A stretch of DNA of 38,403 nt from a virus: positions 1 to 38,403 of IMG/VR virus record IMGVR_UViG_3300030333_002938; one strand, given 5' to 3'. This document shows positions 12,146 through 38,339 of this stretch, piece after piece (the first letter of the stretch is position 1; each line of letters opens with the position of its first letter). A program made the translations under genes and the position numbers. The notes below the pieces were generated by a model. It saw nothing but the letters and a program-made list of their open reading frames with translations, made no database searches and was not told the DNA's origin.

Positions 12146-13570
12146 TTAAACATCTGCGCAAACGTTAATCCCAAACGGACATCCGTAATACGCCCTTCCT
12201 GTCGAAGGTATGACGGTGACGCAATCGCGTTTCGGATCCTCACTCGGCCAGTCTGTTTCACAATCCGTAAACTGGATTATCTGATCAACGTCCAATCCTT
12301 CGACGTAGTTAAGCACCGCTCTATGACTTGTGCCACCACCGTAGAGCGTCTTGAACTCAATCGGTCCTTCGCATCTATTCCATGTGTCGTGGCCAATGAC
12401 GCTAGTATCGTGGTAGACAATCTCGATTCGATCAACGTTCGTGACCGACTCAACCAAGTCATTCATTAGCCGCACCCACAAAGGAAAGTAATCAACACAG
12501 CTTCCGCTGCAATCAACTACTAGCGCAACAGAGTTGCCATTACGCCGCTTCGTACCCGGCATAAACGAGTCTTGTGATTGACAGCGACGACTTCTCCGCG
12601 ACCAATCGATGCGTCGGTCACCGCCCGGACGCAATGCGTCAATGACAACGTCCTGCCATTGCTGCCCAGCCAGACCTGTTTCCTCAGTACATTCGTTCAG
12701 ACAAACGTGATCCCGTGAGCGACTTACCCCGCGATTGACATGCACGCTTTTTAACTCGTCAGGATTACCAAGTTCACCAAACTCGTCCGCGATCAAATCA
12801 GCAGCAGTCCCGACCACTTCCGGCATGTCTTCGATATCTTCACCGGGATAGAAGTCGCTGCGAAAGGATCCCGCCGCGTGAACTCCGTCCATGACCCGAG
12901 AATCGCCCGTCTCGGCTCCAGATTGGCCGTCAGACGGCCCGTTTTCCTGTCCGGCGTCCGAATTATCGCTTCCCTGCGAATCGGCGCCAGAATCGCCCGT
13001 CTCGGCTCCGTCGCTTGACGGCTCCATATTTGCGCCAGAATCGCCCGTTTCCTGTCCGGCATCCGAATTATCGCTTTTCTGCGAATCGGCGCCAGAATCG
13101 CCCGTCTGCGCGTCTGGCTGGCTATCCTTGGCATCCTTCAATTGATCGTTATACCACTCCATTCTTGGCGCGTAGTAGTCGACCCAACACAGACCCGGCT
13201 CACAGCCGATGTCGGCAGGATGCGTCCCGCCGTCAGGAAGTGAAACCCACTTGGCGATCACGCTGTTTATTTCGTCATCCATCGCGTAGTTCGCAACGAC
13301 ATGATTCGTCAACCCAGAGTCGTTGTACTGATCGTGATGACGAAACAAAACGTGCATCACCTCGTGCATCAGCAAACCCTTTTTCTGCTCCCGTTTGAGT
13401 GAATCAAAAAACGCAGGATTAATTAGCAAAGCCGTTCCATCTGTCGCGGCTGTTTCAATCCTGTCGGTTTCAATCACCCGCAAATGCAAAAGCGAATTTG
13501 CGAGTGATACCCACAACGGACGATCGCTCAAAAGCAATTCAAATAAAATCTGTTGGTATGAACTCTTCAT
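12146..13570 (-). CDS. Metallopeptidase-like / VWA-like protein (DUF2201 type)
   Basis: The 474-residue protein starts at the ATG at 13570 with GAGGGCG upstream. Residues 69-78 hold HEVMHVLFRH, an HExxH-type zinc motif, inside the metallopeptidase-like N-domain of DUF2201 proteins. An acidic, Ser/Gly/Asp-rich repeat linker spans about 154-225. The C-domain is VWA-like: VVDCSGS (351-357) gives the MIDAS DxSxS, with later TLYGGGTSH and IIQFTDCETDW. It belongs with the upstream MoxR-type AAA+ ATPase, since MoxR and VWA proteins act together in metal insertion or complex remodelling. The substrate is unknown; a phage assembly or host-takeover chaperone is the inference. Confidence 0.8.
   Translation of the reverse strand: MKSSYQQILFELLLSDRPLWVSLANSLLHLRVIETDRIETAATDGTALLINPAFFDSLKREQKKGLLMHEVMHVLFRHHDQYNDSGLTNHVVANYAMDDEINSVIAKWVSLPDGGTHPADIGCEPGLCWVDYYAPRMEWYNDQLKDAKDSQPDAQTGDSGADSQKSDNSDAGQETGDSGANMEPSSDGAETGDSGADSQGSDNSDAGQENGPSDGQSGAETGDSRVMDGVHAAGSFRSDFYPGEDIEDMPEVVGTAADLIADEFGELGNPDELKSVHVNRGVSRSRDHVCLNECTEETGLAGQQWQDVVIDALRPGGDRRIDWSRRSRRCQSQDSFMPGTKRRNGNSVALVVDCSGSCVDYFPLWVRLMNDLVESVTNVDRIEIVYHDTSVIGHDTWNRCEGPIEFKTLYGGGTSHRAVLNYVEGLDVDQIIQFTDCETDWPSEDPKRDCVTVIPSTGRAYYGCPFGINVCADV
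12896..13111 (-). repeat. Coding repeats in linker of the VWA protein
   Basis: Near-identical blocks encode ETGDSGADSQ, SDNSDAGQE and similar, in about four copies. The DNA shares long exact words (GAATCGCCCGTCTCGGCTCC on the plus strand). Recent duplication of linker units is the simplest explanation. Confidence 0.8.
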
Positions 13571-13580
13571 TGTTACGCCC

Positions 13581-14483
13581 TCATTTGATGTACTGGAGAA
13601 TTGCAAGTGCTTCCAAGGCTTCCGCGTCCTCGTTAATATCTTGCAAAATGTTTTGGGATCCTTCAAACGCCGATTGAATAGCGTCTGCCGTTTCTTGCAA
13701 AGCGTCTAGTTCCTTTTGAACTCGATCACGCTTTTTCTTCGCGCGCTTTCGCTCCGATTTATCTCCGCAATTAATTGCGGAGTTATGTTCGGTCAATTCC
13801 TTTTTCAATTCCGCGTATTGATCCTCCAATTGCTGACGAGCGTTATCGATAATCGCGCGCATTGTATTGGGGTCTGTTCCGCACTTGCAGCGATACAGGA
13901 CGTTGCCTGTTTTCTCCAGCGACTCCGCAAACGTTTTCAATCGATCCAGCGCGCAGGATGGAACAAAAAACGCTCCACCTCTTTCTCGCACTCGAACAGC
14001 GTTAAATTGTTCGACCAGAATCTTGCCAAGGTGATGCGATACCCGACCGGCCGATACCGCGCCATAATACTTATCGACCAACTCCGTCAATTGTAAATCC
14101 GGTTGCCAATCGATATCGCGTCCATTTTGAACACGCGCCTCCAAGTCAGCGGGCGCTTTTTCAATTTGCCAGTACGCCGATACATCAAAGTCACCCTCCA
14201 ACACGATGCGATAAATATCTCGCGTGAAGTAATCGTTTCTCGTATCCTCAACTGACTCCTTTAAAACAACCATCGCATTGAGCTTGTCGTTTTTACGAAT
14301 CAAACAATCGCGCCCGAAACGTTCCTTTAAAGCCAATTTCAACGCGTCGTCTTTGCTAATCGTCCCCCAAGTAATCGACTTATATCCGTCGACCAATTCT
14401 AGGTCATCCTTTTTCGTCATTGTTGAGGACCAAAAAACAATCTCGCCCGATACCAAGTCAAATTCTTTTGTGTTCGTAGTCAT
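13581..14483 (-). CDS. Uncharacterised coiled-coil protein between MoxR and VWA genes
   Basis: The 300-residue protein has a mixed alpha/beta N-terminal region (about 1-110), a middle domain with FFVPSCALDRLKTF (172-185), a YRCKCG pair near 197-202, and a long charged helix from about 207 to 285 with heptad-like spacing (QLEDQYAELKKELTEHN, RVQKELDALQETADAIQ). It is fixed between the AAA+ ATPase and the VWA gene, so it probably bridges them or is their client. No family was assigned. The leader is the exact early motif CACGAAAGGAAAGAACC. Confidence 0.7.
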   Translation of the reverse strand: MTTNTKEFDLVSGEIVFWSSTMTKKDDLELVDGYKSITWGTISKDDALKLALKERFGRDCLIRKNDKLNAMVVLKESVEDTRNDYFTRDIYRIVLEGDFDVSAYWQIEKAPADLEARVQNGRDIDWQPDLQLTELVDKYYGAVSAGRVSHHLGKILVEQFNAVRVRERGGAFFVPSCALDRLKTFAESLEKTGNVLYRCKCGTDPNTMRAIIDNARQQLEDQYAELKKELTEHNSAINCGDKSERKRAKKKRDRVQKELDALQETADAIQSAFEGSQNILQDINEDAEALEALAILQYIK

Positions 14484-14507
14484 GGTTCTTTCCTTTCGTG
14501 ATATTCA

Positions 14508-15518
14508 TTAATTACTGTTAGTCTCTGCGTCGCGCGCCGCCTTCAATGCCGACGCATGTTTCTTCAATAATGCCTTCCACGGTGACTGCATTAGCGCGTC
14601 GCTAAATCCTCTGTCCGCCACTTCTCGTAAAAACAAAACGGCGTGCGCCGACGGAAGGCAGACAACCAACTCAAATAAGTTTGCGTCATTATGGCCGTAC
14701 CCTTCGTTGCATAAATACTCTGCCAGACGATTGGCCCATGTTTTCATTAACATAGGATCCTCTGGCGGTTCCTTCTGTCCGTCGAGTACTTCCTTGACCT
14801 TTGGAACATTTACGTGCGTCGCCATCCATGCGTGAAAGCCCTTCGCCGTATCCTTACCAATCACACCCTCAAGCACTTCAGGATTCGACGTTGCACGAAT
14901 CACACTACCAACTCGTTCCCAGTTGCGCGGACTCGGTTGATTCTCGTCAATCTTCGCGTCCCAGCGATGGAAGTGTTCAGGATGTTGTGAAAGGTATTCC
15001 AGAATCGTTTCGTTATATTCCGGCGACTCCCGATACCACTCACTCCACCCGATAAACTCGGCTTCAATCGTCAGCATGATAAATCGGTCGCGCAATGCAG
15101 AGGCGAGCCGAGTGCATCCGGCGCGATCCTCAACACGATTGCCCGTCATTACGATAATCGTTTCGGGGTGCAGTTTGGTCTTTCCAATTTCACGACCCAA
15201 CACAAGCTTCATTAACGGAGAGATCATGTCGGGCGTTGCTTGCGTCAATTCGTCCAAACAGATAACCGCTTTTTCAGTCGGCCATATTTCAGCAGGAAAC
15301 CATTTAGCAATTTCCTCGTCTTTGTCGAGATACATACCGCCGCGAAAGTCAATCGGCTCAAACTCTGCTGCTCTGATTTCAACGTAGGGCAGGTCTAGTT
15401 CCTCCGCGATTGCCTTGACGATTGTTGTCTTGCCTAAACCGGGCGCGCCAAGGATGCCAAACGGTTGGTTGATAGCTGCCAGTTTCTTGCCTTCTTCGAT
15501 TAATGTTTTAGCGTTCAT
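14508..15518 (-). CDS. MoxR-type AAA+ ATPase
   Basis: The 336-residue protein has Walker A GAPGLGKTT (24-32), Walker B VICLDEL (85-91), sensor-1 Asn in VMTGNR (123-128) and an arginine finger in LASALRDRF (138-146). EPIDFRGG (54-61) and the insert around ATPDMISPLMKLV match the MoxR clade. MoxR ATPases pair with VWA proteins to remodel or activate enzyme complexes. The VWA partner lies two genes downstream. The C-terminal domain (about 230-336) is helical and specific to this branch. The leader is again CACGAAAGGAAAGAACC. Its client in the phage is unknown. Confidence 0.88.
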   Translation of the reverse strand: MNAKTLIEEGKKLAAINQPFGILGAPGLGKTTIVKAIAEELDLPYVEIRAAEFEPIDFRGGMYLDKDEEIAKWFPAEIWPTEKAVICLDELTQATPDMISPLMKLVLGREIGKTKLHPETIIVMTGNRVEDRAGCTRLASALRDRFIMLTIEAEFIGWSEWYRESPEYNETILEYLSQHPEHFHRWDAKIDENQPSPRNWERVGSVIRATSNPEVLEGVIGKDTAKGFHAWMATHVNVPKVKEVLDGQKEPPEDPMLMKTWANRLAEYLCNEGYGHNDANLFELVVCLPSAHAVLFLREVADRGFSDALMQSPWKALLKKHASALKAARDAETNSN

Positions 15519-22589: not shown

Positions 22590-24242
22590 TTAAATATTAT
22601 TTTCAATTGGCTGTTCTTTTTGCGTCATCTTTTCCCAAAAACCAAGTCCTTGTTCCATTAATTCGTTTAACGTCTCAAGCAATTTTTTTGAGTCCTCTGC
22701 CGCCTTAAGTTGTTTCTGCGATTCTGTCACACGTCCTCGTGAAAGCAACCTTCCCTCCGATGCCGTCAGCGCTTTGAAATCTTGTTTTTTATCAACGGTT
22801 GTTTTTGTCGGATCCGGTTTTTTATTTGGATCATCATCACCTGCTAAGTTTGATAAATCTAAACCCATCCATTTGCCAGCGCCGCCGCCTAATTCGACTG
22901 TAAACAAGTCTTTCCAACTTGCCATTCGACCCTCAAACTTATCGTTGACCTTATCGAGTAGATTGCCCGTCGTTTTTCCAACAGCGGCCCATGCAGCTTT
23001 TTCCGCACCTGACATTTCGCGCTCAATTAGGCCGGGGAATTTTTCTGTCGTAATTTTAAATCCTTCCAACATATTGCGGCCCGCGATTTCACCCGCTTTG
23101 CGCATGGCGTCACCGCCACTCATCTTTCTTGTTACGACATCCCAAAACACTTTAATTAAATCAATAATCTGTGCGATGCGATTTTTCCACATCGTTATGT
23201 AAGCCATGAACATATCGCGGCCCATGTTTAGGAAATTATCTGCAAACCATTTTAGCCACGCCGGGATCTCAACTGTAAATCTATGCTTGACCATTTCAAC
23301 GTAAGAAATAATCGACGCCTTAACAGTTGCAATGGCAATAAACATTACCTGCACCCAATTCTCAACTGCCACCTCAGCAAACGTCCATGCGTAAACAAGC
23401 TTCTCGCCAATCCATGCAGCCAACTCACCCATCTTCTCTGCAAACGATTGCATGAGCGGTAAAGCTTTAGCAATGACCTCTTGTATGATTGGCGAAATCC
23501 GATTGAACCAGTCTGCCAGTTTTTTGACGAATGGCGCCAATAACTCGCCAACTTTTTCAAGCATGTCACCCCAATTATTACCAAGTGATTTTAACGCACC
23601 CTGTAATGTATTAGTTCCTTGGTTTGCCATGTCCCAGCCCTCTGCCAACTTCTGTTGTATAAAGGCTTGTTTTTCTGACTCTGTTTCCATCTGTCGCATA
23701 GCAGGAAACGTTTCAATCAATGCGTCTACATACCCTTCTGTTCCATTGACTGCGGCTCTCATGGCGCGCTTTAAAGGCTTGCCGGTTATTTCCGCTAACG
23801 CAATTGCGCTTTGCGTTACTTGTTTCATCCGGTCATCGGTGACGCCCATTCCGCGAGCGACCTGCATTTGGTTCATAATTTCTTCGTCGCCAATGTTAGT
23901 TAGCGCTTGTAGATTGGCGGCATAGTTTTGTAACTCTTTCGAGTTGCCGCGCATCGCCTCTTCCTGAACGGCCCATGAATTTAAGCTCTCACCAATCATG
24001 CTTGTAAACGCATTAAACGCCGCTTTCGCAGCGGCAGACGCAGCCTTTGCGGCGAGAAATCCACCTGCCACCAATGCGAGTGGGCCGACCATACCTTTCA
24101 TGCTTCCGCCAAGTCCACTACCAGCGCTTGACGTTTGGCGCATTGACGTTTTCAAATTATCGGTAGACTTGGACGCTTTATTAATTGCTGGCGACGCTTC
24201 GTCGCGAGCTTTCAAAAGAATGTTAACGGAGTTGCTTGCCAT
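22590..24242 (-). CDS. Tape measure protein
   Basis: The 550-residue protein begins with NSVNILLKARDEASPAINKASK, a standard tape-measure opening. A hydrophobic Ala/Gly segment (VGPLALVAGGFLAAKAASAAAKAAF, about 52-76) follows, then long helices including a region with amphipathic segments near 230-330. It would set tail length at roughly 80 nm if fully helical. It lies directly after the frameshifted tail chaperone genes and overlaps them as TAATG, the classic order. Confidence 0.9.
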   Translation of the reverse strand: MASNSVNILLKARDEASPAINKASKSTDNLKTSMRQTSSAGSGLGGSMKGMVGPLALVAGGFLAAKAASAAAKAAFNAFTSMIGESLNSWAVQEEAMRGNSKELQNYAANLQALTNIGDEEIMNQMQVARGMGVTDDRMKQVTQSAIALAEITGKPLKRAMRAAVNGTEGYVDALIETFPAMRQMETESEKQAFIQQKLAEGWDMANQGTNTLQGALKSLGNNWGDMLEKVGELLAPFVKKLADWFNRISPIIQEVIAKALPLMQSFAEKMGELAAWIGEKLVYAWTFAEVAVENWVQVMFIAIATVKASIISYVEMVKHRFTVEIPAWLKWFADNFLNMGRDMFMAYITMWKNRIAQIIDLIKVFWDVVTRKMSGGDAMRKAGEIAGRNMLEGFKITTEKFPGLIEREMSGAEKAAWAAVGKTTGNLLDKVNDKFEGRMASWKDLFTVELGGGAGKWMGLDLSNLAGDDDPNKKPDPTKTTVDKKQDFKALTASEGRLLSRGRVTESQKQLKAAEDSKKLLETLNELMEQGLGFWEKMTQKEQPIENNI

Positions 24243-24957
24243 TAGTTTTTACCCCATTTCTGTGACTCTGCTTTTGAATCTTCCGACCATAAAAACTGAC
24301 ATGCAGATAGAAACGATTGCGACTGCTCAAGAACGCCGCCCATAATTGGGAACGCTCCATTCTTTGCATAGTCGGCCAGTTCAATAAACATCGTTACCTC
24401 GCGTCCAATTATCTGTTGTGGGCAACTCGTAATTTCCAAGTAGCCTTTGTTGTTGCATTTACTACATCCCGCCTCGTCGCAGGTAGGGCAAGCGATTTGA
24501 AGTGGCGTCGTTTCGCTTGGAATTATTTCACAGCGATTGCCGGAACACCCACTACAAATTAATCCGTTTCGGATACAGCTTGCGAGTCTGATTTTTTTTT
24601 ATCTTCGTGAGTAGGAACAACCGCGCCCAGTAGCTTGCCCATTAAATCGGTCGATGCCTCTATTGGATTTAACACAAGGTCGATGTCCTCAACATTAAAC
24701 GGAATCGCTTCGCCGCTGCTAGGGTCAAACATATTAACCCAATCCAACAAGCCAATTGATACCGTTTCGTATATGGCATCTAGTTGCGCCGCCATGCCGT
24801 CTACCTCACCCGCCTGCAAAGCGTCGAACACTTTTGCGACTCGTCTCCACTCGCGCCCGTTTAAGGCGCGGTAGATAAACGTTGGTGGATTTTCTTTGTC
24901 CTTATCGGAATCCAAAACAAGTTTGATTCGCGCAGTAGGATCGGTATAGAGTGGCAT
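24242..24957 (-). CDS. Tail assembly chaperone, -1 frameshift (gpGT-like) product
   Basis: The upstream chaperone frame and the following frame are joined by a -1 shift on the A9 run at 24592-24600. In the new frame the sequence reads on without a stop from the slip site to the TAA overlapping the tape-measure ATG. It has no ATG, GTG or TTG before its conserved part, so independent translation would miss it. The extension of about 116 residues has CSGCSGNRC, then CPTCDEAGCSKC and a final CP, a DnaJ-like zinc-ribbon. Lambda gpG/gpGT is the precedent for this arrangement. A separate 49- or 65-residue gene here would lose the cysteine domain. Confidence 0.8.
24559..24957 (-). CDS. Tail assembly chaperone (gpG-like), unshifted product
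   Basis: The 132-residue protein precedes the tape measure. It has a mixed N-domain with TFIYRALNGREWRRVAKVFD, then helices and an acidic segment (FNVEDIDLVLNPIE). It ends HEDKKKSDSQAVSETD after the slippery lysine codons. Tail chaperones of this kind coat the tape measure while the tube is built and leave the mature virion. The ratio of this form to the shifted form is set by slippage at the A9 run. Confidence 0.75.
   Translation of the reverse strand: MPLYTDPTARIKLVLDSDKDKENPPTFIYRALNGREWRRVAKVFDALQAGEVDGMAAQLDAIYETVSIGLLDWVNMFDPSSGEAIPFNVEDIDLVLNPIEASTDLMGKLLGAVVPTHEDKKKSDSQAVSETD
24592..24600 (-). promoter_or_regulatory. Slippery A9 run for programmed -1 frameshift
   Basis: GAT AAA AAA AAA TCA contains the heptamer A AAA AAA, a well known -1 slip site. 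The zero frame stops 29 bases after the run. The -1 frame is open beyond. Confidence 0.8.
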
Positions 24958-32118: not shown

Positions 32119-34251
32119 CTACTTCCTTTGCGTAATTAAGTATGGTTGTCCGCTAGGAGTCAAAAACGGTTTGATGTTTTTTTCCTTTGCGGTGCTAACG
32201 ACAGGTTGTGAATATGTTCCAAGTGGTAACTGTACGCCCTTCATTCGCGCAGCGGCACAGGCCATGTATGTGGCGTCCAGAAAGTGATTGTTCCGGTTGA
32301 CTTGATGCCAGTACTTACGAATACCCTTGCCCGGTATAAACTCCTCGCGCCGTTCTTCCGCCACAATGTGATGCGAGTAGCTTAAATGTTTTTTTCGATC
32401 CTCTGTGCTATAGACTGAAAGACTAGCAGGCATGTAATGTCGCGCTTCGTTAAATGTTGGCGTCAAGAAACGCTCGTGAACGAATTGCTTCCAGTAGTCT
32501 GTGTCAAGTAAATACAGCCAAAGGTTTTCTTGCTTTTGAAACGAGGCGTACCAGTTCTCACCCGGTATTCTGTCTTTGCTGGCTTTTCCAACTGAAAACG
32601 AACGACTGTTAATTCCTTTCGACGCCATGAACGGAGTTCCGCCAACTTCACGAATGAATTGATAGGCCGTTTTCGTGAAGTCGCCAGAGTCTACTAAAGC
32701 CATGTCAATAGATTTTCCGACGCTCAACATTTCGGATCGCCAGCGAACAAGAGAATTAAATAAAGCAATTTCCGACGCTTGACTATCTGTTTCTGTCCCG
32801 ACTCCGTGTACTTCTATAACTCCGTAGTCGACAACATTTCCTATGCAGTCAGGTTGCCACCCAATCATTACCCAATGACATAAATATTTACCAAGGTCAA
32901 TTCCTACAGTTACGAGTTTGTGTTCGGGATGCCATTCGCCTTGGTCGAGTCCTGACATTCTTTTACCAACAGTCGCTGCCGTTAAGCCGGATGTTTCCGG
33001 GCCGGATTCCTCTGACGGGTCGTTCTGACATTCCGATAAGAACGACTCCATTCCGTAATCAGCAATTATGTTGTAGCAATGTTGAAGCGCGGATACCTCT
33101 ACGTTCCATCCGTCAAGCAAAACAGTTTGGTCGAATCTTTGTGGATTCGAAACGACGGCGCCAGCGTCCATTTGTTTTCGATTATCAATGTAAAATTGCG
33201 TTGCGTCCCTTCCTTCTTTATCACCGGCGCGCTGCCCTTCCTGACGTTGAACAATGTATTCTTCCCACATGGCGGAGTTATCTGGAAACTCGTCCAGCAT
33301 TTTAAATCGTTTTCCTGACCACGATGACTTCTGTTTGGGATCCGTGTATTGATAGGCAAGGCAATATCTGTTTTGAATCGTACATAGCATCACTCGCGCA
33401 ATTCGTTTCATTGGCCCCGCAAGTCCTGCGATGTCACGGTCAATGCTTTGTGACCGAATTGAAATCTGGTGCGACGACATGGCGCTTTCTCTTGTTTCCG
33501 GGTCGTCAATTAAAACAAAGTCTGGCCGCATCCCGTTAATTATTAATCCGCGAATGGCTGCGTCTAAGCCGAAGTACGCCAGTGAAACGCCACCGTATGG
33601 CGAACCTTCAATAGTTGGTAAAGTAAACGACGAAGCCTTCCATGCGATACGAGTTAACTTCCCATTATGCCGCTGCATGTTCCCGCGCTGCGGTGCGCCC
33701 TCAAGTGCTTTGACGGGATCCGCAATTTCTGGAAAGTCGTCGCCCAGCAACTCGTTATTTTCAAATTGATACTTTATGTCTTTGAATATTCGTTCTGCAT
33801 GTGGCCCTGTTTGCGCAATGATAATCGGAAACCTGACCCATTGATTTAAAATTGCATAAATCATCATCACGGTTGCCACGGTTGTTTTTCCTTCACCGCG
33901 CGGAGCTGAGATTGCTTGGTCACCGCCATACTCTGCAACGTGACAAATTGCTTCAATCATTTCGTCGTGATGTTTGGCGTTTGACATATAGAACCGATCC
34001 GCAAAGTATGTCTGTATAAATTGCTTTGGATCCTTCAATGCGCTTGCACGTCTCTTTTTGTCCGCGCATTTACGGACAGTTATTTCCATTTCCGCAGCGC
34101 GCTTGCGGCGCATAATTTCGCGCTGCGACGAACGGTATTCTGGTTTAACTTTTGATAAAGCAGCGCGCCCGTCTGCCGCAAATTTCTCTGCTCGTTTTAT
34201 CTGTTCTTCGAGCTGCTCAATCTGTTGTTCGCTTTGTGGTTTGTCGCTCAT
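32119..34251 (-). CDS. terL: Terminase large subunit
   Basis: The 710-residue protein has an N-terminal coiled region (1-65), then the packaging ATPase: Walker [10 protein letters not shown] (116-124) and Walker B FVLIDDPE (245-252). The nuclease part has Asp452 in [10 protein letters not shown], Asp521/524 in [10 protein letters not shown], and a late [14 protein letters not shown] with the third acidic residue. This matches terminase ATPase plus RNase H-like nuclease, with NHxLDA as seen in lambda gpA-type proteins. The ATG overlaps the FolE stop as ATGA, so it is translated with the modification genes. It would cut at cos and pump DNA through the portal. Confidence 0.93.
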
Positions 34252-34838
34252 TCATTTAACGATAAAAGTGCGAAGAACTCTGACCGCGCACGCTGGTCAT
34301 CCTTAAAGTTTCCTCGTATGCAAGACGTAATCATCTGTGCATCCTTTTGCCGAACGCCTCTACAAGCCATACATTGGTGCTGCGCTTGCATTACAACGCC
34401 GACGGCTTTTGCGTCTAAATTCTTTTCTACTGCTAAGGCAATTTGCTCAGTCAGCCTTTCTTGAACCTGAAGCCTTTGCGCGTAACATTCGACGACTCGC
34501 GCTAATTTTGACAAGCCAACTATTGTTCCGTTTGGAATATATCCAACAGCCGCGCGACCAACAAACGGCAATACATGGTGTTCACAAACGGAGGTAAAAC
34601 GTATTCCGTTTAAGATAACGATTTCGTCCGAGTCGCTTTCAAATTGTTTGCTTAGAATTTCGTCTGGATTTAGAAAATAGCCGCTCGTCATTTCACCCAA
34701 TGCTTTAACCATTCGAGCAGGCGTTTCCGGGTCGATACCAACAGGCATTACTCTCGTCAGTAATTGCGCAGCAAGATCGTGTTCAATTTCTACCGCATTG
34801 GCAAAAGTAGTTTGTGAGTCTGTAGGCTTAGTTTCCAT
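34248..34838 (-). CDS. folE: GTP cyclohydrolase I (preQ0 pathway step 1)
   Basis: The 196-residue protein carries the GTP cyclohydrolase I signatures: [20 protein letters not shown] (about 83-102) with Cys85 and His88, [22 protein letters not shown] (109-130, cited as two motifs), and HQCMACRGV (154-162) with Cys156 as the third zinc ligand. It converts GTP to dihydroneopterin triphosphate, the substrate for QueD. Start at the ATG 34838 is preferred; an ATG at 34871 has a better ribosome site but would overlap queE by 82 bases. It is the last of the modification genes and overlaps terL as ATGA. Confidence 0.93.
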
Positions 34839-35398
34839 TTGGGATTTTCCATTATTAAGGCTTGGCACCATTTCACCGCTTTCAGGTCAGGGGATCCGTC
34901 TGGGTTAAACGTAGGGCTTAAATAAAAATGCTCTGCTTCAAGTCTAGGCTTAGGCAGCGCCATATTATCGTTTATTACATATCGTAATTCATTGACAGGT
35001 CCGCATCGTAAAGTATGTTCGGCCGTTTTTGGGGAACAGCTTATCCAGTCAACCGAGTCGGGTAGTTCACGTGTTCCGTTTGTTTCGACGGCGTGAAAAT
35101 AATCTGGTAATGAAGCAAGCAACGTTTCCGATAATTGAAGCGCCGGTTCACCTCCCGTCCAGATGATGTTGCCGCATTTATTTTCGTCAAGACTTTTGAT
35201 CGTTTCGATCAATTCGTTTTCTGTGTACTTAATTCCATTCGACCAATTCGTGTCGCAATCAAATCCATGTTCCTTTATGTTGCAAGTAAGATTACAACCC
35301 GAAAACCTGACGAATACGTTTACTGTTCCAGTTCGATTTCCTTCGCCTTGGATCGAGTAGAATATTTCATTGACGCTATAGGTCCGTTGTTTCAGCAT
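34790..35398 (-). CDS. queE: QueE, 7-carboxy-7-deazaguanine synthase
   Basis: The 202-residue radical SAM protein has YSIQGEG (14-20), the cluster cysteines Cys35, Cys39 and Cys48 in [27 protein letters not shown] (81-89), and a C-terminal WKLSLQTHK typical of QueE. The cluster spacing is CX3CX8C rather than the usual CX3CX2C, so the loop is enlarged. It turns 6-carboxytetrahydropterin into CDG. The start is the ATG at 35398, overlapping queD by 23 bases; a GTG at 35410 lacks a ribosome site. Confidence 0.9.
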
Positions 35399-35855
35399 AG
35401 CAATTTTCACTTTCGGCTAGTCGGTAGTTTGCGGAATTATTTTGTGTTTCATGGCAGGTAACTTTGACGACTCGAACCCGGCCACCCGTTTCTTTTTCAA
35501 CTACATTGGCAGTTTTGCAAAAGATAAATTTGGCGAATGATTCACAGCCGACATTGACCATAGTCCTAAGCTGGATCAATCCTTTTTGATCCATTTCAAT
35601 AAAATCAGAAAGATGTGGATCGTCCTCCGCTATTATGGTCGTGTGGTCGAACCATAATTTAAAATCGTTTTTCAAACCATTCGCCTTAAAAGCCCCGAAA
35701 TCCATCACCCAGTTCCGGTCGTCCAATTTACCAGCAAACGTGATATTGAATTCTAAAGCGTATCCGTGAAGAAACTGACAATGCGAGTCGGCACGCCATT
35801 GACGAAAGCAAGTAGAATATCCGGTGAATCGTTTGGTGGATTCATACATAAGCAT
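35376..35855 (-). CDS. queD: QueD-like 6-carboxytetrahydropterin synthase
   Basis: The 159-residue protein is of the phage QueD type: TGYSTCFRQWRADSHCQFLHGY (11-32, key residues Cys16, Cys26, His30), NWVMDFG, FDHTTIIAEDDP and, near the end, CHETQNNSANY. The canonical zinc triad SxxH...HGH is changed: Cys/Phe replaces the first His and HGY replaces HGH. This change seems to be shared by related phage proteins. It converts dihydroneopterin triphosphate to CPH4. The ATG at 35855 has GGGA upstream; a GTG at 35870 is possible. Confidence 0.85.
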   Translation of the reverse strand: MLMYESTKRFTGYSTCFRQWRADSHCQFLHGYALEFNITFAGKLDDRNWVMDFGAFKANGLKNDFKLWFDHTTIIAEDDPHLSDFIEMDQKGLIQLRTMVNVGCESFAKFIFCKTANVVEKETGGRVRVVKVTCHETQNNSANYRLAESENCYAETTDL

Positions 35856-35870
35856 TTTTAATTTTCCCAC

Positions 35871-36284
35871 TCATCCGCCGCGTGCAAGTTGTCGTGTTTT
35901 TTTGCGTAGCCACGAATTACGATATCCCATTGTCAGCCCCGTCATTGGAGCGTAAACATTAAACTGATACAGCGCATTGTTATACCTATCCGATGCCAAT
36001 GAATAAATCGTTTCGTTTTTATTAATTAACTGTTGTAGTCGTTTGCTGTTTTGAAAAATCCAACGACGATATTGCTCTGTTTTCAAATCCGTTATTTTCA
36101 ATTCGTATGGTTCAATAATATCGCTCGGATTTAGCACTCCATATTTTGCCGACAGAATAAAATATCGCTCCGTTGTTTTTTTAACTATGCTCGTGGACAT
36201 TTTAAAAAACGAACCTAGGTACATATCTTCTGCGCGACATTTTTTTATTTGTTTTTTTGAACCACATCCTATGATTCCAATCAT
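35871..36284 (-). CDS. DUF6884-like protein in modification operon
   Basis: The 137-residue protein starts at the ATG at 36284, overlapping the queC stop as ATGA with GGAG upstream. It begins IGIIGCGSKKQIKKCRAEDMYLGSFF (cited in parts) and has YFILSAKYGVLNPSDIIEPYELKI near 44-65. These are the signatures of the DUF6884 family, similar to YaaA-type proteins (gCgkxK, LSAkyGLl, pYd). Its fixed place between queC and queD suggests a part in making, inserting or editing the modified base. The biochemical role is unknown. Confidence 0.7.
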   Translation of the reverse strand: MIGIIGCGSKKQIKKCRAEDMYLGSFFKMSTSIVKKTTERYFILSAKYGVLNPSDIIEPYELKITDLKTEQYRRWIFQNSKRLQQLINKNETIYSLASDRYNNALYQFNVYAPMTGLTMGYRNSWLRKKTRQLARGG

Positions 36285-36940
36285 GCGTACTCCACCGGAT
36301 CCTCTTTTCCAATATTTGCAAACGCCTCTAATCGTTCCTGACAGGCGCCGCATTTACCACATGATTCGTCTTGGTCTTTATAACAGGTCCGTGTCCACGC
36401 GTATGGAACGCCATGTTCGTGGCCGTAATTTAAAATCGTTGTTTTGTCTCCGTCAAGAAACGGCGCAACACAATCAACCTTTCCGTCAGTTGAATATTTA
36501 AGAGTTTGCTTAAGTGAATTGAAAAACTCAGGTCGGCAGTCGGGATAAATCGCGTGATCGCCCGAGTGAATCCCAAGCCACAGTTGATCGATGCCAAGTG
36601 ACTCGGCAAGCCCCGCAGCAATCGAACTGAAAATCATGTTCCTATTCGGGATCACCGTTTGCTTCATTGTCTCTGACTCGTAGTGACCCTCTGGTATCGC
36701 GCCGCCCGTTTGAAGTAGATTGGACTCAAACTCATCAAACAAAGATGTCACGTCGATGACACGTCGTTGAACCCCCGCAAACGCGCATAATCGACCACCC
36801 TGCAAAAGTTCATATTTATTATGTTTTGACGGATATTGGAACGAAACAGCGCAACAATTGGCTTTTCCTACCGTATTTATCATGTAATACAAAACTGTTG
36901 CCGAATCCATTCCGCCGCTAAGTAAAGTCATTGCTTTCAT
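36281..36940 (-). CDS. queC: QueC, preQ0 synthase
   Basis: The 219-residue protein has the N-type ATP pyrophosphatase loop LLSGGMDSAT (6-15), FQYPSKHNKYE, IPNRNMIF, LWLGIHSGDHAIYPDCRPEF, and a zinc site CGKCGACQERL near the C-terminus with an extra upstream Cys (TCYKDQDESC). These identify QueC, which turns CDG, ATP and ammonia into preQ0. The ATG at 36940 overlaps the dpdA stop as ATGA; longer frames would run back into that gene. No glutamine amidotransferase fusion is present, so free preQ0 is the expected product. Confidence 0.93.
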   Translation of the reverse strand: MKAMTLLSGGMDSATVLYYMINTVGKANCCAVSFQYPSKHNKYELLQGGRLCAFAGVQRRVIDVTSLFDEFESNLLQTGGAIPEGHYESETMKQTVIPNRNMIFSSIAAGLAESLGIDQLWLGIHSGDHAIYPDCRPEFFNSLKQTLKYSTDGKVDCVAPFLDGDKTTILNYGHEHGVPYAWTRTCYKDQDESCGKCGACQERLEAFANIGKEDPVEYA

Positions 36941-37776
36941 TGTTTTGCTTCCCAAAACCGTTTTGCTTTTAATAACCACTCGACTTGAGTGCCGCCGCAA
37001 CATGCGCAAAAGTATTTCGTTCCCAACTCGCCAATGTCCTTTTGATACCAAAGGATTTGTCGCGCTGCGACTACTGTAACCATAGTTGCTTTTCGTCCTC
37101 TGTTCCTCCACTCTTCCTTGTCCTTTAGTTTTCTAAAATCCAAGTCGTAGTGTTGACGTAAGGCTCTGCAAACAGCCGGTGCTGGAGGTCGTTTGCTTGC
37201 TTCTCTACTCGTGTATTTTGCTGTTTTAAAATTGCCGAGATAAATCGACATCGCTCCAAATTGCTGCCCCGCACACCAACTGCTAGAATCGACGGACGTT
37301 GGTTTATAGGCAGTAACGTAATCTTGATTGCAAAAGCCAAGCAAATGGACTTTTCTATTTCCTATTTGCTGCATTATGTTATTAATGAACGCTTTATTTT
37401 TTCTTGTCCCGACCAAACCGCCAATCGCGATCATGTCGGTCTGATTATAAAATCGTTCTATTGCGTCCGAGTGTTCGCCTCTTGTGAAGATTGGTAGCGG
37501 ATCAAATCCGCGACGTAACATCGTTTGGTAATTCTTTTCTGTCGCAATAGGATCCCCAATAACGTCAAGGACGAAATACTTCCAAGGCTTGAACGGAAGC
37601 GTTTCAAGAAAGCGACAATAGTCGTCAAGTTTAATTTGCTTTCCAGACTTCCATGCTGTGAAAGCTCCCGAGTCAATTAATACAGTCAAGTCCTTTTGAT
37701 TGGCCGTAATTAATTTCGCAAAAGATTTATTTAAGTAGGGGTAAGCAACAAGCACGTTTGTCTTTGGCATTTTCAT
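36937..37776 (-). CDS. dpdA: DpdA-type DNA 7-deazaguanine transglycosylase
   Basis: The 279-residue protein is a small TGT-fold enzyme: IDSGAFTAW with Asp35 (34-42), FVLDVIGDP with Asp71 (68-76), IAIGGLVG (117-124), HLLGF (144-148) and DSSSW (163-167). The C-terminal FCACCGG (256-262) may bind metal. The cognate tRNA enzyme is longer and has CxCx2C plus His; the short form and phage context, beside queC/D/E and folE, fit DpdA, which exchanges guanine in DNA for preQ0 or a derivative. The sub-family was not decided. ATGA overlap with the ParB-like gene upstream indicates coupled translation. Confidence 0.85.
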   Translation of the reverse strand: MKMPKTNVLVAYPYLNKSFAKLITANQKDLTVLIDSGAFTAWKSGKQIKLDDYCRFLETLPFKPWKYFVLDVIGDPIATEKNYQTMLRRGFDPLPIFTRGEHSDAIERFYNQTDMIAIGGLVGTRKNKAFINNIMQQIGNRKVHLLGFCNQDYVTAYKPTSVDSSSWCAGQQFGAMSIYLGNFKTAKYTSREASKRPPAPAVCRALRQHYDLDFRKLKDKEEWRNRGRKATMVTVVAARQILWYQKDIGELGTKYFCACCGGTQVEWLLKAKRFWEAKQ

Positions 37777-38339
37777 TCAACGATAAACTCCATTCCCGCG
37801 TCATGTAGCGCTTGCGCAATACATCCTGTTGCGTCCTCTTTTTGTTCTTGCAAAACAACGACTTTAATCGTCGCCATTATTCCCTCGTCTGTGAGGCCGT
37901 CTGTGTCAATAAGTTCCTCACCCGTTTTCATGTCTGTGTCCCATTCACCTGCCAGAATTTGAAGCTGTCCAAGCAAGTCGTCGTTTAATTCTGGAACAGA
38001 GTCAATCAACTCTCCGACCTTGTCTTTGTCAACATCTGCCAAGTAGGTCAATGTATCGTAACTTGCAAGCAGCTGCTCGGCTTCCTCGTCTGTCACATCT
38101 AACAGCAGGCAAGGAACGTCGTCTAGTTGATCGGCGCGAAGATGTCCGTCAATCAACATATACCCGTCACCGTCAGACGGTTCATAAACGATGCAAGCGC
38201 CCGCGACTCCGATAGATGCCAAAACGTTTTTGAATGAGTTCACTTGGGCGTCAGGATGCTGCCGCCAGTTCTTTGGATGCGGCCGCAATTCACTTGACGG
38301 CAAACGCTGGAATCCTTTGATTCGGTCTTTGATCTTCAC
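37773..38339 (-). CDS. ParB/sulfiredoxin-fold protein, probable DpdA partner
   Basis: The 188-residue protein has a ParB/Srx N-domain: LRPHPKNWRQHP (18-29), then YMLIDGHLRADQL with the GHLR phosphate-binding motif near 65-77, and VTDEEAEQLLASYDTL. The C-terminal part is acidic. The start is GTG (38337-38339), since GGAGG lies seven bases upstream. Bacterial Dpd systems use DpdB, a ParB-like ATPase, together with DpdA to insert preQ0. A ParB-like gene fused by ATGA overlap to dpdA may do the same here. It is the first gene after the putative cos end. A terminase-linked role is the alternative. Confidence 0.75.
   Translation of the reverse strand: MKIKDRIKGFQRLPSSELRPHPKNWRQHPDAQVNSFKNVLASIGVAGACIVYEPSDGDGYMLIDGHLRADQLDDVPCLLLDVTDEEAEQLLASYDTLTYLADVDKDKVGELIDSVPELNDDLLGQLQILAGEWDTDMKTGEELIDTDGLTDEGIMATIKVVVLQEQKEDATGCIAQALHDAGMEFIVE

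Follow-up and report, generated by a model that had tools for sequence, protein, structure and literature searches.

How is the cysteine-rich open frame that precedes the tape measure gene in this virus genome translated, and what does it add to the protein encoded upstream of it? The initial annotation had proposed that a programmed -1 frameshift on a run of nine adenines (A9) extends a tail chaperone with a DnaJ-like zinc ribbon. The frameshifted tail chaperone is among the most conserved recoding events in phages, and the slip site in lambda is G_GGA_AAG. Conserved frameshifted tail chaperones were reportedly described by Xu, Hendrix and Duda in 2004, and PMC5009743 reviews them. To our knowledge, the recruitment of tail subunits by the added T domain is poorly understood. 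Lambda makes gpG plus a little gpGT, with the tape measure protein as the binding partner of G and the tail tube protein as that of T (PMC5009743), and two tested genes of a tail chaperone cluster related to HK97 were shifted at 6–7% (PMC3711429).

The window, i.e., the whole stretch of DNA analysed here, is a 38.4-kb virus record (IMGVR_UViG_3300030333_002938) whose structural genes are located on the minus strand. These include genes for large terminase, portal, ClpP-like head protease and major head protein, and several open reading frames (ORFs) of connector size. On the same strand, a 132-aa ORF, here called G-like, was found with the tape measure gene on one side and the gene for a putative major tail protein on the other (Table 1), and a G-like ORF had the same position in the related loci L002, L004, L006, L075–L077, L080, L081 and L090. 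The family search with the major tail protein candidate of the window gave no match.

Table 1. Features of the tail chaperone locus, in window coordinates.
Feature	Position	Strand	Basis or remark
Putative major tail protein gene, 309 aa	24974–25903	-	Position; ORF; same place in L002, L004 and L006
G-like tail-assembly chaperone ORF, 132 aa, zero frame	24559–24957	-	ATG at 24957, TAA at 24559
TAA stop of the -1 frame, directly 5' of the slip site	24599–24601	-	Sequence
A9 run	24592–24600	-	Sequence; slippery heptamer A_AAA_AAA at 24598–24592
-1 frame extension (T-like), 118 codons plus stop	24242–24598	-	Eight conserved cysteines, then a helical part
Possible weak stem-loop 3' of the slip site	24554–24585	-	Core stem ATCCG/CGGAT
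TAATG, extension stop overlapping the tape measure start codon	24240–24244	-	Sequence; same in L002
Tape measure gene, 550 aa	22590–24242	-	PHROG tape-measure matches

Other regions of the minus strand contained genes of separate interest. Positions 34248–38339 carry a 7-deazaguanine gene set composed of GTP cyclohydrolase I (FolE), a QueE-like radical SAM protein, a QueD-like protein (6-pyruvoyl tetrahydropterin synthase) and QueC, which suggests that the phage modifies guanines in its own DNA; a 279-aa ORF adjoining these genes (36937–37776) might be a DpdA-like DNA transglycosylase. A MoxR-type AAA ATPase (14508–15518) was detected near a DUF2201 metallopeptidase/VWA protein (12146–13666), and this chaperone-like pair (12146–15518) is unusual in a small phage. 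Besides, the N-terminal part of an HNH endonuclease (185–811) has several extra CxxC motifs.

Across the A9 run, the zero frame reads GAT AAA AAA AAA TCA and the -1 frame reads TAA AAA AAA ATC AGA. Because the TAA sits directly before the slip site, the heptamer A_AAA_AAA is the only -1 entry into the open frame, which continues for 118 codons up to a TAA (24244–24242) sharing one base with the tape measure ATG. The first ATG, GTG or TTG in the -1 frame is a TTG located 152 nt beyond the run and 3' of the CxxC...CxxC block. The initial annotation had described the run, a downstream frame that is open but offers no normal start codon before its cysteine-rich part, its end exactly at the tape measure ATG, and the motifs CSGCSGNRC and CPTCDEAGCSKC within it; all of these were confirmed.

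A profile search based on three sequences identified 65 IMG/VR loci and one contig of a Planctomycetaceae MAG, and these 66 relative loci, with duplicates of one contig left out, were analysed. Viral scans using either the window extension alone or L080 as query found nothing, and no close relative of this phage group was present among 50,697 phage records. The nearest relative, L002, was 77% identical to the window at the amino acid level in G and 65% in the extension, and it retained A9, the TAA before the run, all eight cysteines and the TAATG junction. Between these two sequences, substitutions in the -1 frame were distributed over the three codon positions as 23/16/57 (57 of 96 at the third position), dN/dS was 0.20, and stops occurred in both other frames of the extension region. 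Together, these features indicate that the -1 frame of the extension is constrained as a protein-coding sequence.

The extension was in frame -1 relative to the upstream ORF, with a canonical heptamer in register at the junction, in all 66 relative loci, which share kinship and do not represent 66 independent trials; at 90% identity, and with the window included, the junctions formed 20 types. Except for L012, which has A_AAA_AAG, every relative locus had A_AAA_AAA, and the A run consisted of seven (L006), eight or nine residues. Elsewhere in the long ORFs of the relatives, A_AAA_AAV or G_GGA_AAR was found at 34 of 43,287 codon positions (0.08%), and A9 occurred once in 163 kb, so that the regular presence of a heptamer at the junction exceeds what chance would give. 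The slip site was kept while the surrounding sequence diverged to ~30% amino acid identity. Thus, the alignment of related phages, which had been suggested as a check on the proposal, revealed conservation of both frames and of the slip register, and this comparative evidence argues strongly for a -1 shift. Several candidate relatives were set aside: the Poseidonia loci L007 and L008 (a match of 16 residues, with a profile search of the L007 genome finding nothing), L078 and L079 (match confined to a 27-residue motif), L082 and L088 (gene order on the strand read did not match), and the phage match MT121966.1, which is a phenylalanyl-tRNA synthetase.

In Planctomycetota genomes, far more diverged homologues were detected; they share the gene order, and all of them have the -1 relation. 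Their slip sites were G_GGA_AAA (L075), A_AAA_AAC (L076) and A_AAA_AAA (L077, L080, L081, L083 and L087). The isolated Microcystis phage Mae-JY22 (PP438414.1; L090:2504-3300) has A_AAA_AAC at the equivalent place and a layout of G, -1 extension and tape measure, which its record annotates as two separate hypothetical proteins; homology in this case is indicated by gene order, slip site and a partial motif, the score (E 0.3) not being significant. Such exchange of X_XXY_YYZ heptamers is predicted by tandem ribosomal slippage and is hard to fit to sequencing error or to RNA polymerase slippage, for which long homopolymers are the preferred sites. L080 and L083 are two copies of the tail module, at ~573 kb and 4.87 Mb on contig C1 of the planctomycete-class genome G697, and probably correspond to two prophages; this genome is a possible laboratory source for frameshift work.

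With regard to RNA structure, many relatives had a stem-loop 7–8 nt after the run, with z-scores down to about -6, and in the main subfamily compensatory changes exceeded those in all 500 shuffles, a control that is somewhat inflated by the kinship of the sequences. RNAalifold found no common structure for all 21 junctions; only the main subfamily has one. The fold of the downstream stretch of the window was not superior to those of shuffled sequences (z -0.9), and in L002 a 15-bp stem of modest significance was located at the equivalent place (z -1.7), so that a structural stimulator in the window is only a candidate.

The same fusion protein would also arise if RNA polymerase added one A within A9, generating A10 transcripts. 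In bacteria, transcriptional slippage at A runs is an established phenomenon (work cited in PMC3711429 and PMC5009743), the run is A9 in the window and L002 and A8–A9 in most relatives, and the downstream RNA structure of the window is weak, all of which would suit this explanation. However, the arrangement is kept at sites with seven As (L006) and at G_GGA_AAA, A_AAA_AAC and A_AAA_AAG, and stem-loops that covary in the relatives are placed at the spacing typical of ribosomal stimulators. The occurrence of several types of canonical heptamer, always -1, argues against transcriptional slippage as the general mechanism, and we consider it improbable as the source of the fusion, although at the A9 of the window it may contribute to the same protein. 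An error of assembly or sequencing is a further alternative: if the true run were A10, there would be one continuous gene and no recoding, and A9 is indeed a place prone to errors in base count. This is extremely unlikely, as independent assemblies, whether with A7, A8 or A9 or with no long homopolymer at all, show the -1 relation and an in-frame fusion was found in no relative. As a general explanation, sequencing error was rejected because A7, A8, A9 and the non-homopolymer heptamers all keep this relation.

Alternatively, the two frames could encode separate proteins, with translation of the extension either reinitiating once the G stop is passed or starting at an unusual codon, the ATC at the end of the run. 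The annotation of Mae-JY22 as two proteins is in line with this, and about 20 relatives (L004, L019, L033 and others) have the junction AAAATGATG, in which a zero-frame TGA directly follows the heptamer and an ATG of the -1 frame lies immediately at the run. In these relatives, the extension could be supplied by frameshifting as well as by reinitiation. On the other hand, the window, L010, L013, L051 and L075 have no ATG, GTG or TTG ahead of the first cysteines, and an own start is disfavoured for them; moreover, it is the in-frame heptamer that is conserved and not a start codon, and reinitiation would need no A run. Separate translation is a very improbable account of the extension in the window, and ribosomal -1 slippage remains the preferred one.

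The identity of the upstream protein as a tail chaperone is supported by its position and by weak but repeated family matches of its relatives. Seven of 29 G-like members matched Pfam PF08748 (Phage_TAC_4; best E 0.0037), four matched phrog_313 ("Tail assembly chaperone"; best E 1.6e-4) and the L076 protein matched phrog_344 (E 0.016). These matches are weak and family searches with the window protein gave no chaperone family match, so the name rests mainly on position plus the matches of relatives. The model of the window protein (pLDDT 81) had the order beta-beta-alpha-alpha-beta-alpha-alpha, and comparison with PDB gave no solved-fold match.

In the extension, cysteines 15, 18, 23, 37, 40, 45, 48 and 59 (numbered from KKIRL) were invariant among 29 sequences, with the spacing C-x2-C-x4-C-x13-C-x2-C-x4-C-x2-C-x10-C. 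One of these, the cysteine of TSCPQ, is additional to the two motifs described initially, and a GGxLDQSAxF part is conserved C-terminal to the cysteines. The extension was modelled (pLDDT 83, pTM 0.75) as a beta hairpin around the cysteines followed by two long helices. Invariant candidate metal ligands in paired CxxC motifs are a feature of zinc domains, and since all eight cysteines are invariant in 29 sequences, zinc binding is very likely. The Mae-JY22 extension, in which the 37/40/45/48 block is missing, has four cysteines only (CxxC...C...CP), equivalent to 15, 18, 23 and 59; this observation suggests two metal sites, one formed by 15/18/23/59 and the other by 37/40/45/48.

As for the DnaJ-like character claimed for this domain, it held as a motif resemblance and failed as a family assignment. 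The extension has one CPxCxGxGCxxC-like block, whereas the four CxxCxGxG repeats of the DnaJ cysteine-rich domain are absent, and DnaJ membership was rejected as none of the 29 members matched the Pfam DnaJ zinc-domain profile at E 0.1. In fold searches, no match of the G part or of the extension reached significance; the best solved fold for the extension was that of the zinc protein anti-TRAP, which carries a DnaJ-like motif (E 0.61, prob 0.60, not significant). The sole match in a PDB profile search was the CxxCxGxGCxxC loop of phenylalanyl-tRNA synthetase alpha (27 residues, E 0.001), and a relationship to this enzyme was rejected because the loop alone is alike and the rest of the protein is unrelated. 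The cysteine-rich T-like domain matches no family.

The directly observed features of this locus are the two ORFs, the slippery site and its conservation, the coding constraint on the -1 frame, the invariant cysteines and the gene order. We consider it highly probable that they represent a chaperone pair of the lambda G/GT type, in which a minority -1 slip at A_AAA_AAA adds a cysteine-rich, probably zinc-binding domain. We infer from the sequences that slippage occurs, its frequency and its ribosomal nature in the window phage, as well as zinc binding and the roles of the products. Most ribosomes would produce the 132-aa G-like protein, and a minority would slip back one base at the heptamer and continue in the -1 frame, giving a fusion product of ~238 aa that consists of G residues 1–122 and the extension from IRLASC onwards. 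The added domain would hold probably two zinc ions through its eight conserved cysteines, and a helical hairpin would follow. If lambda is taken as a model, coating of the tape measure protein would fall to the G part and recruitment of the major tail protein to the T-like part, which the zinc sites would keep in shape for this contact.

Several known systems resemble this arrangement in part. Lambda has the same order of major tail protein, G, -1 T and tape measure, with a short overlap carrying a canonical -1 heptamer, and L075 uses G_GGA_AAA; in contrast, the main heptamer here is A_AAA_AAA, and the added domain contains eight invariant cysteines without matching a known T domain. E. coli dnaX (A_AAA_AAG plus a stem-loop) likewise has an A-rich heptamer of lysine codons, identical to that of L012, and many relatives have a stem-loop at similar spacing. 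The dnaX shift shortens its product, whereas the shift here adds a domain, and the structure in the window is weak. No earlier report of a zinc-binding or cysteine-rich T extension was found in the open-access literature. Thus, the -1 frameshifted tail chaperone is known, and the cysteine-rich, very probably zinc-binding T-like domain is new within the scope of this search.

As a start codon is often missing, ordinary annotation easily overlooks the extension, which is spread across an uncultured phage group linked to Planctomycetota. The natural exchange of A_AAA_AAA, A_AAA_AAG, A_AAA_AAC and G_GGA_AAA at one homologous site is useful for studies of slippage outside E. coli, and the eight invariant cysteines give the added domain a clear, testable chemical signature. 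A more tentative and rather speculative idea is that the extension represents a new, zinc-dependent domain for tail assembly, which needs its two metal sites to hold the major tail protein or to pass it on. If this were true, tail assembly in these planctomycete-associated phages would depend on metal (or on the redox state of cysteines) as well as on the frameshift ratio.
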